A stretch of DNA of 36,705 bases from Opitutales bacterium. GTDB taxonomy: Bacteria > Verrucomicrobiota > Verrucomicrobiia > Opitutales > Oceanipulchritudinaceae. Of this stretch, positions 3,378 through 6,103 are shown piece by piece. The notes under the pieces were generated by a model. That model had not been told where the DNA came from. It saw only the letters and a list, made by a program, of their open reading frames with translations, and searched no databases. The translations under genes were made by a program, and so were the position numbers. Numbering within the stretch: the stretch's first letter is position 1; each line of letters starts with the position of its first letter. The stretch is from the NCBI GenBank assembly GCA_020831485.1, contig JAFIGG010000036.1, positions 1-36,705 of the forward strand, written 5' to 3'.

Positions 3378-3396
3378 ACCCGACACCTTAAGGTTC

Positions 3397-3415
3397 GATA
3401 CGAGCGGAGCGTATC
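3397..3415. repeat. Short palindrome upstream of the heparinase gene
   Basis: Inverted repeat GATACG / CGTATC separated by 7 bases (AGCGGAG). It lies just upstream of the heparinase start, so it could be an operator or another copy of the dispersed palindrome class. Confidence 0.4.
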
Positions 3416-3472
3416 CCCTAGAGGCTTTATGGTAAAAGCGGAGGAAACCGGAAGTTTTGCCATTTTGCGATT

Positions 3473-3503
3473 TGATCCGGCGTAGCCTAGCGAAGTCGGA
3501 TCA
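3473..3503. repeat. Inverted repeat immediately left of a duplicated segment
   Basis: Seven-base arms TGATCCG (3473-3479) and CGGATCA (3497-3503) flank a 17-base interior. The right arm ends one base before the ~78 bp segment that is repeated in front of the nitroreductase, so it may mark the recombination boundary. Confidence 0.4.
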
Positions 3504-3504
3504 T

Positions 3505-3582
3505 CCTATCCGCTCCCTAAATTTGAAAATCCCCTGAATGCATCGTATCCCTGTCGGACATGGATCCACTGACTGCAATTCT
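3505..3582 (+). repeat. Copy 1 of a ~78 bp duplication (nitroreductase upstream region plus first codons)
   Basis: Aligns with 5447-5522 at roughly 80-85% identity by eye with a few single-base indels. Shared blocks include CCTATCCGCTCC, TTTGAAAATC, CATGGAT and ACTGACTGCAATTC. In the second copy this DNA is the upstream region and start of the nitroreductase gene. Here the match ends after seven codons, and the reading frame then terminates at 3608-3610, on top of the start of the next gene. Confidence 0.8.
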
Positions 3583-3610
3583 TGAGACAGGCACACAAAC
3601 AGATGAGTAA
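3560..3610 (+). pseudogene. Nitroreductase N-terminal remnant, possible 16-codon leader ORF
   Basis: ATG at 3560 begins MDPLTAI, matching MDTLTAI of the nitroreductase at 5501, then diverges and stops at TAA 3608-3610. The ATG of the following ADP-ribosylglycohydrolase (3603) lies inside its last codons, so translation of this remnant would end next to that start. It is best read as a broken copy of the nitroreductase 5' end. Whether it now works as a coupling leader peptide is speculation. Confidence 0.55.
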
Positions 3611-4622
3611 GGTTTTTCAAAACGCGTTTCTGGGCAGTCTGGTGGCGGATGCGCTCTCCATGCCTGTTCATTGGTATTACGACACTACCGCTCTGGACCG
3701 CGATTACGGTGCAATCACGGGCTATCAGGCTCCGCGCAACCCCCATCCGGACAGCATTCTCTGGCGGAGCTCCTACCAGCCGATCAACGATCGCGGCGAA
3801 ATCCTGCATGACCAAGCCCGCTTCTGGGGGCAAAAAGGGGTGCACTACCATCAGTTTCTAGAGGCCGGGGAGAATACTCTGAATTACCAACTCGGGATAG
3901 AGCTTTACCGCTGGATCATAATGCGTGGTGGTTACAGCGAAAAGGAGTGGCTCGACCACTACATTGAAGTCATGCAGACCCCGGGCTGGCACAAAGACAC
4001 CTACGTGGAAGAAGTTCACCGAAACTTCTTTACCCATTATGCCAGGGGCAAGAAGCCGATGGATTGTTCGGTAAAGGACCTGCATATTGGCGCTCTCAGC
4101 CAGGTGCCGGCTCTCATCGCAGGCCTGGATGCGCTGGGAGACCCGGCTCCTGAAGAACTGACTGAAGTTATCAAAAGCCACGTTCGCTTGACCCATAACC
4201 ACCCTGAATCCATCGAAGCCGCTACGTTGCTCGTCCGCTTGCTCTGCGATTTGAATGAAGGTAAGCCGCTTCGGGAAAGCATCGCGAGCCGGGCGGTCAA
4301 ATGGACCGGTGCAACCACGCTGAAAGACTGGGAAAAACGGTCGGACCGGGAGGTCGTCGGAAGCAAAGTCTCAACCGCCTGTTACCTGCCAGAAGCAATG
4401 ACTGCATCCCTGCACTTCGTCTGGAAGTATGAGCAGGACTTCGCTACAGGGATTCAGGCGAATGCCCAGGTCGGTGGAGACAATTGCCATCGAGCAGCAA
4501 TTGTAGGAGGCTTGTTGGGCGGGGAACTCGGCGTCCCTGAAGACTGGCTTTTCGGGTTGAAGGCTATGGAGGCGCTGCGCTGCGATCAGGGTTTAAAACC
4601 GATTAAGGACCCGGACTTTTGA
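3603..4622 (+). CDS. ADP-ribosylglycohydrolase (DraG/ARH) family protein, divergent metal site
   Basis: Homologue of enzymes that remove ADP-ribose from proteins or small molecules, 339 residues. Family landmarks are FLGSLVADALSMPVHWYYD at the N-terminus (normally GxxxGDALGxP) and GGDNCHRAAIVGGLLGG near residues 291-307 (normally GGDTDTxAAIxGAxxGA). Active DraG/ARH enzymes bind two Mg ions with a TDD(T/S) motif and a DxD pair. Here the first position reads ENTLNYQ (residues 90-96) and the second DNCH (D293-N-C-H296), so most acidic ligands appear to be missing. The protein may use another metal arrangement, another substrate, or be non-catalytic. ATG 3603 is chosen because similarity begins there; an upstream TTG at 3582 is the alternative. 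It is preceded by a duplicated nitroreductase leader and converges on a DoxX gene only 7 bases away. Confidence 0.75.
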   Translation: MSKVFQNAFLGSLVADALSMPVHWYYDTTALDRDYGAITGYQAPRNPHPDSILWRSSYQPINDRGEILHDQARFWGQKGVHYHQFLEAGENTLNYQLGIELYRWIIMRGGYSEKEWLDHYIEVMQTPGWHKDTYVEEVHRNFFTHYARGKKPMDCSVKDLHIGALSQVPALIAGLDALGDPAPEELTEVIKSHVRLTHNHPESIEAATLLVRLLCDLNEGKPLRESIASRAVKWTGATTLKDWEKRSDREVVGSKVSTACYLPEAMTASLHFVWKYEQDFATGIQANAQVGGDNCHRAAIVGGLLGGELGVPEDWLFGLKAMEALRCDQGLKPIKDPDF

Positions 4623-4629
4623 GGCCGGG

Positions 4630-4986
4630 TTAAGTTGCAAAATTCTTTCCAAAAACGTTCACAAACAGGAGTAAATTGACGGCGCCCAGCGCTGCGGCCG
4701 GCATCATTTGGATCCAAGGGTCGCCGACCCGCCATCGGACTGCAACACCTGCAATCATTAACAAAGTCAGTCCGGCTGAGGCAATGAGTGTGAGGATTGG
4801 AAAGTAGAATCCAAGCCAAAGCCCCAGGCCTCCGAAGATTTCGAGCAATCCAACCCAGCGCCTAAAGTTAGCTAGGCCGTAGCGCTCAAATTCGGCTTTC
4901 ATTCCACCGAAACAAAGGCATGCGGTGCCATACACAAGGAATGCCAGGCCTGAGAGCGTCTGTAAAATGATAATGTGCGTTTCCAT
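4630..4986 (-). CDS. DoxX family membrane protein
   Basis: Small integral membrane protein of 118 residues with four hydrophobic helices. It has the DoxX-like order: helix 1, FERYGL loop, Gly-rich second helix (LLEIFGGLGLWLGFY), third helix with LLMIAGVAVRWRVGDP, then the fourth. DoxX-type proteins are small membrane subunits linked to quinone or thiol redox processes, but the biochemical role of this branch is not established. The start at 4986 begins right before the first membrane segment; a further upstream start would add a polar stretch. It is divergent from a second DoxX-like gene that shares the residue pattern EFxxYGL...GLxxxxGLxLxxGxxxP, so the two are probably paralogues. Confidence 0.75.
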   Translation of the reverse strand: METHIIILQTLSGLAFLVYGTACLCFGGMKAEFERYGLANFRRWVGLLEIFGGLGLWLGFYFPILTLIASAGLTLLMIAGVAVRWRVGDPWIQMMPAAALGAVNLLLFVNVFGKNFAT

Positions 4987-5016
4987 ACAGGCTAAAACGA
5001 TGATTTTGCGACAAAC

Positions 5017-5037
5017 CGATTGATTCTCTGCCAATCG
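5017..5037. promoter_or_regulatory. Inverted repeat in the divergent DoxX promoter region (candidate operator)
   Basis: CGATTG (5017-5022) and CAATCG (5032-5037) are separated by 9 bases in the 72-base gap between two divergent DoxX genes. The spacing and location fit a dimeric regulator's operator, but no regulator gene is adjacent and the arms are short. Confidence 0.35.
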
Positions 5038-5058
5038 AAAGATAGAGTCTAAAATACT

Positions 5059-5427
5059 ATGGAAATTTTAGCAATTGCCCTGCAAGTGATTGTATCACTT
5101 GGCCTCCTCAATGTCTGGATCCTGCGCTTCAACTGCAAGACGTCTTATCGGGGTGGCGAGGCCACTTCCATGCGTGAAGAATTCGCAGCCTACGGTCTAC
5201 CTGCAAGCGTCATGCTTGCCGTGGGTGGATTGAAAATCCTCTCCGCACTGGCTCTACTGGCCGGAATCTGGCTTCCGGTCGCGGTAATCCCCGCCGCGTC
5301 GGTCATAGCCTTGCTCATGATTGCAGCCATTGCCATGCATATGAAAGTGAAGGATCCGCTGGTAAAGTTCCTGCCAGCGGCTGGCGTCCTCGTGATGACT
5401 ATTGGCATTCTGGTACTCAATGCTTAA
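5059..5427 (+). CDS. DoxX-like membrane protein
   Basis: 122-residue membrane protein with four predicted helices. EEFAAYGL precedes the second helix, and the third helix (SVIALLMIAAIAMHMKVKDP) matches the corresponding part of the divergent DoxX gene. Family members are often encoded beside nitroreductases, oxidoreductases or redox regulators. Here the nitroreductase follows 73 bases downstream on the same strand. The start ATG at 5059 directly precedes the first hydrophobic helix. No clear ribosome-binding site is seen. Its function is probably in membrane redox balance, but this is inferred from the family only. Confidence 0.7.
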   Translation: MEILAIALQVIVSLGLLNVWILRFNCKTSYRGGEATSMREEFAAYGLPASVMLAVGGLKILSALALLAGIWLPVAVIPAASVIALLMIAAIAMHMKVKDPLVKFLPAAGVLVMTIGILVLNA

Positions 5428-5446
5428 AGCACTGTCTCTGTTTCAG

Positions 5447-5522
5447 CCTATCCGCTCCACAAGTTTGAAAATCCCTGAAAGCACTGTAACCCTTTCGGGC
5501 ATGGATACACTGACTGCAATTC
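5447..5522 (+). repeat. Copy 2 of the ~78 bp duplication (native context of the nitroreductase)
   Basis: Matches 3505-3582. Here the segment runs into an intact nitroreductase frame starting at 5501, so this is the likely original location of the duplicated DNA. Confidence 0.8.
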
Positions 5523-6103
5523 GCGAACGCCGTTCGATCAAACACTACGATGCCGGGCACCGGATGCCGGACGCTGAAGTCCGCAAGCTTCTGGAGCTGA
5601 CAATGCAGGCACCGACCGCCTTCAACATTCAGCACTGGCGCTTTGTGGTGGTGCAGAATCCGGAGATTCGTAAACAGATCCGGACTGTGGCCTGGGATCA
5701 GGCGCAGGTTACGGACGCCTCGCTGTTGGTGGTGCTCTGCGCCAACAAGGATGCCTGGAAGGAAGACCCGGCCCGCTACTGGAAAAACGCGCCCAAAGAA
5801 GTTCAGGACATCCTATTGCCGGCAATCGGCCAGTATTACAAAGACCGCCCTGAGGTTCAGCAGGATGAATGCATGCGTAGTTGCGGCCTCGCCGGTGCGA
5901 CCCTGATGCTGGCGGCAAAAGCCATGGGCTACGACTCCTGTCCAATGGATGGTTTTGACTTCGAGCAGGTCGGGAAAATCATTCAACTGCCCGAAAACCA
6001 CGTCATCTCCTTTATGGTCGCAATTGGCAAAGGCACCGAAAAAGCCTGGCCCAAACCTGGCCAGCTCAGCTATGGGGAAGTGGTGAAGACGGATCGGTTT
6101 TGA
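5501..6103 (+). CDS. Nitroreductase family FMN-dependent oxidoreductase
   Basis: Predicted NAD(P)H- and FMN-dependent nitroreductase, 200 residues. Such enzymes are cytosolic homodimers reducing nitro groups, quinones or flavins. Visible hallmarks are the N-terminal RERRSIKHYD FMN-phosphate-binding motif (around residues 8-17), MQAPTAFNIQHWRFVVV (around 36-52; usually APSxxNxQPWxF), and the Gly-rich MAAKAMGYDSCPMDGF segment that packs against the flavin. The frame is open further upstream, but ATG 5501 is chosen because MDTLTAIRERRSIK is where the family begins. It lies downstream of a DoxX-like gene, a common pairing. Its physiological substrate cannot be predicted. Confidence 0.88.
   Translation: MDTLTAIRERRSIKHYDAGHRMPDAEVRKLLELTMQAPTAFNIQHWRFVVVQNPEIRKQIRTVAWDQAQVTDASLLVVLCANKDAWKEDPARYWKNAPKEVQDILLPAIGQYYKDRPEVQQDECMRSCGLAGATLMLAAKAMGYDSCPMDGFDFEQVGKIIQLPENHVISFMVAIGKGTEKAWPKPGQLSYGEVVKTDRF

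Follow-up and report, generated by a model that had tools for sequence, protein, structure and literature searches.

A nitroreductase leader and gene start partially duplicated in front of an ADP-ribosylglycohydrolase gene: a probable promoter capture in an Opitutales bacterium

The window analysed here is a stretch of 36,705 nt from a 3.86-Mb genome in 142 contigs. An ADP-ribosylglycohydrolase family gene (PF03747, E = 1.3e-39; 339 aa plus stop) lies at 3603–4622 on the forward strand, divergent from a heparinase-like gene, the two starting at 3603 and 3386, respectively. It is present as a single copy in the genome. Two genes for DoxX-like membrane proteins (both PF13564), mutually divergent at 4630–5034 on the reverse strand and 5059–5427 on the forward strand, lie between it and a nitroreductase family gene (PF00881, E = 3.1e-36; 200 aa plus stop) at 5501–6103, again on the forward strand. 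The starts at 3603 and 5501 both agree with homologues. The nitroreductase leader together with the first seven codons (copy B, 5443–5522, forward strand) starts about 16 bp past the DoxX-like stop codon, and is found a second time, also on the forward strand, directly upstream of the ADP-ribosylglycohydrolase gene (copy A, 3501–3581).

Pairwise alignment of 3501–3581 with 5443–5522 gives 69 identical positions in 81 columns (85%), the differences being 11 substitutions and one 1-bp indel at 3531. The local score of 56 compares with a mean of 11.8 and a maximum of 21 in dinucleotide shuffles of 5351–5650, and the next-best site for the repeat within the window scores 23. The initial annotation had placed the repeat at 3505–3582 and 5447–5522 with an identity of ~80–85% by eye; the similarity is real and above background, the coordinates were right within a few bases, and the estimate of identity was correct. 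Both edges are sharp, with flank similarity at background (shuffle fractions 0.17–0.88), and no further nitroreductase remnants are found past 3581. Whole-genome BLAST with the repeat recovers the second copy at E = 3.5e-19 and shows exactly two copies of the 81 bp, the sole further match at E<0.01 being a 24-bp stretch elsewhere that is not accompanied by a related gene start. The 15% divergence between the copies excludes an assembly duplicate. A dispersed regulatory or REP-like repeat is ruled out, since the genome holds only these two copies and a single copy of the neighbouring inverted repeat described below. Among leader 12-mers, CCTATCCGCTCC has two occurrences and TTTGAAAATCCC has three, the third of these within a long coding ORF; a search for a regulon motif found no further copies of these 12-mers before other genes. 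No structured RNA was matched in an Rfam search. A 22-bp local repeat (5423–5444/5475–5496, 77%) is taken as chance.

The left edge of copy A is accompanied by a 7-bp inverted repeat, TGATCCG..CGGATCA (3473–3503), as had been pointed out from the sequence by the initial annotation. Its fold z is −2.3. As an intrinsic terminator it is rejected by pattern, there being no T-run, and as a member of a repeat family it is rejected because it is unique in the genome. Its right end falls at the beginning of copy A, and it may mark the breakpoint. A separate, perfect inverted repeat, GATACG-AGCGGAG-CGTATC, lies at 3397–3415 just upstream of the heparinase-like gene, of which it is a possible operator.

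The direction of copying can be read from the coding part of the repeat. The last 22 bp encode MDTLTAI in the nitroreductase, and nitroreductase orthologues of other genera begin with MDTLTAI, MDTFTAI, MNTLEAI and similar sequences. The frame in copy A reads MDPLTAI, followed by nine unrelated codons to the stop, and the seven copied codons have no counterpart in ADP-ribosylglycohydrolase homologues. Since the copied codons are a conserved nitroreductase N-terminus, the nitroreductase gene was the donor, and the repeat unit ahead of the ADP-ribosylglycohydrolase gene derives from it. This supports the direction proposed earlier, in which the nitroreductase start had been copied. The partial duplication is real in its edges, direction and uniqueness. 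The leader portion leaves no conserved footprint in the orthologues and is therefore either young or fast-evolving.

Canonical ADP-ribosylglycohydrolases carry a GGDTD metal-binding motif; the gene at 3603–4622 and its close homologues (L007, L008, L011, L012, L013 and L016) carry GGDNCHR at this position. A PDB search with the protein returned only DraG matches, and these weakly. Judged by sequence, the protein and its homologues form a divergent and uncharacterised subfamily of uncertain catalytic competence. In another genome of the same order (G047), a homologue of the hydrolase (53–54% identical) and a pair of DoxX-like genes lie ~5 kb apart in locus L155 (G047:C1:3971000-3989000), together with genes for a DNA photolyase, a photolyase-related protein, SOUL, DUF2071, ferritin-like, lipocalin, cyclopropane synthetase-family and DUF1365 proteins. 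This cluster, which does not involve the nitroreductase, appears to resemble photo-oxidative stress gene sets, and from such gene company a role of the ADP-ribosylglycohydrolase in redox stress is plausible. The DoxX-like pair itself is kept across the order in varying orientations, being divergent at 4630–5427, convergent in L155, and tandem in L157 and L158.

None of 54 further genomes from this order has the repeat pair, so that the duplication is lineage-specific. Within the family, the ADP-ribosylglycohydrolase occurs in one and the nitroreductase in eight of the 16 other genomes, and the whole arrangement was found in none of the same-family genomes compared. Outside the source genome, no locus combines the nitroreductase with the ADP-ribosylglycohydrolase among 146 loci, many taken with 1.5-kb flanks, and additional larger regions. 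The matches to a nitroreductase search of genome contigs included no genome of the same genus. Comparison of related genomes likewise found the hydrolase-DoxX-DoxX block as a unit in no relative.

The ADP-ribosylglycohydrolase and heparinase-like genes point away from each other, so that a promoter for the former is to be expected within or close to 3387–3602. Copy A fills most of the right half of this interval, at positions −102 to −22 of the gene, and may reasonably be expected to carry the transcription start site. Two features expected of a promoter capture are found here: the 5′ region of the nitroreductase gene is present as a second copy directly upstream of the recipient, and both the donor gene and the direction can be named. 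We lean, with modest confidence, towards the reading that an old rearrangement of ~80 bp placed the nitroreductase leader before the ADP-ribosylglycohydrolase gene, probably as a promoter capture. Transcription of the latter would then begin in the duplicated leader, and both genes may thus answer the same signal. Promoter function of copy A is plausible, albeit unproven, and we infer it as probable from the arrangement.

It is also conceivable, at rather less than even chance, that copy A is a neutral scar of no consequence for expression, the gene being transcribed from a promoter at 3387–3500, where its original promoter could lie. Such a promoter would have room in the other ~115 bp of intergenic sequence. 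No sigma-70 promoter match was found in either copy, although the consensus may not suit this bacterial group, and the indel at 3531 shifts the spacing downstream of the common TTGAAA by one base. The leader has 10 substitutions and the indel in 59 columns versus one substitution in the 22 coding columns (Fisher p = 0.16), a pattern with no sign of constraint on the leader. What speaks against a scar is that copy A occupies −102 to −22, the usual place of promoter elements, and is still 85% intact. A further proposal concerns the coding end of copy A, where a remnant ORF of 16 codons (MDPLTAILETGTQTDE) runs on the forward strand from the ATG at 3560 to the TAA at 3608–3610 and overlaps the ADP-ribosylglycohydrolase start (ATG 3603–3605) by 8 bp. 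The initial annotation saw this frame correctly and suggested a leader peptide whose translation is coupled to that of the ADP-ribosylglycohydrolase. The overlap and the single difference in the 22-nt coding part are in its favor. However, simulated junctions placed a stop within −10..+12 of the ATG in 56% of cases, so that a stop this near has a chance rate of ~0.56; apart from the overlap, which chance would produce in roughly one case out of two, nothing was found for coupling. Moreover, neither ATG is preceded by a clear Shine-Dalgarno sequence, by the Fisher test given above the coding part is not significantly less diverged than the leader, and no counterpart of the ORF exists upstream of ADP-ribosylglycohydrolase homologues. 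A functional leader peptide is not supported by the sequence comparisons, and we consider translational coupling through it very unlikely. The joint proposal, that the captured leader puts the ADP-ribosylglycohydrolase under the redox-stress control of the nitroreductase and that the retained start acts as a functional coupling leader peptide, is more improbable still; if true, it would represent a naturally fixed regulatory capture with a coding sequence reused as a translational switch.

For the capture that we favor, an old and small rearrangement would have copied ~80 bp over a distance of 1.94 kb, to lie 21 bp ahead of the ADP-ribosylglycohydrolase start. A tandem duplication could do this if it ran from 21 bp before the ADP-ribosylglycohydrolase gene as far as nitroreductase codon 7 and the first of the two resulting hydrolase-DoxX-DoxX blocks was later lost. 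Alternatively, one template-switch copying event would produce the same observed structure. These are the simplest routes, and any choice between them is inferred. The repeats flank exactly the hydrolase-DoxX-DoxX block (3582–5442), as they would if recombination had inserted the block at the 5′ end of the nitroreductase gene and direct repeats had remained on both sides, either by Campbell-like integration via a short homologous piece or through two tandem nitroreductase copies, the first of which has since lost its body. Such an insertion would have the identical sequence outcome by a route other than duplication. The arrangement in G047, where the hydrolase homologue and the DoxX pair lie ~5 kb apart and have no nitroreductase of this type near them, indicates that the three genes are able to occur independently of the nitroreductase. 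Nevertheless, no mobile-element genes were found among the scanned neighbours, no relative has the block as a unit, and its GC content of 50–55% is only slightly under the 57% of the window. We regard the insertion as unlikely.

The event, seen as a duplication, is a known and ordinary kind of small genome rearrangement. In the E. coli long-term evolution experiment, the rnk-citG duplication put citT under the rnk promoter (PMC5918244). There, as in the present locus, the duplication junction sets the 5′ end of one gene, with its initial codons and its promoter (in our case a presumed one), before another and leaves a truncated ORF at the junction, a parallel that concerns the tandem-duplication route. 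That duplication is recent and complete and its change in expression was measured (PMC5918244), whereas in the present case an 80-bp piece of 85% identity is what remains. Acquired genes have also been activated by spontaneous tandem duplication with 9-bp microhomology borders (PMC11111574), and in that system as in ours a duplication over a short range would be the source of a gene's expression. The former was engineered and selected; the latter is a natural locus.

If the copied leader drives the ADP-ribosylglycohydrolase gene, the locus would be a naturally fixed case in which a partial duplication led to promoter capture. Laboratory evolution is where this process is best known; here donor, recipient and junction can all be read within 2 kb. 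In that case, a redox-stress role would also be hinted at for the uncharacterised subfamily to which this ADP-ribosylglycohydrolase belongs.
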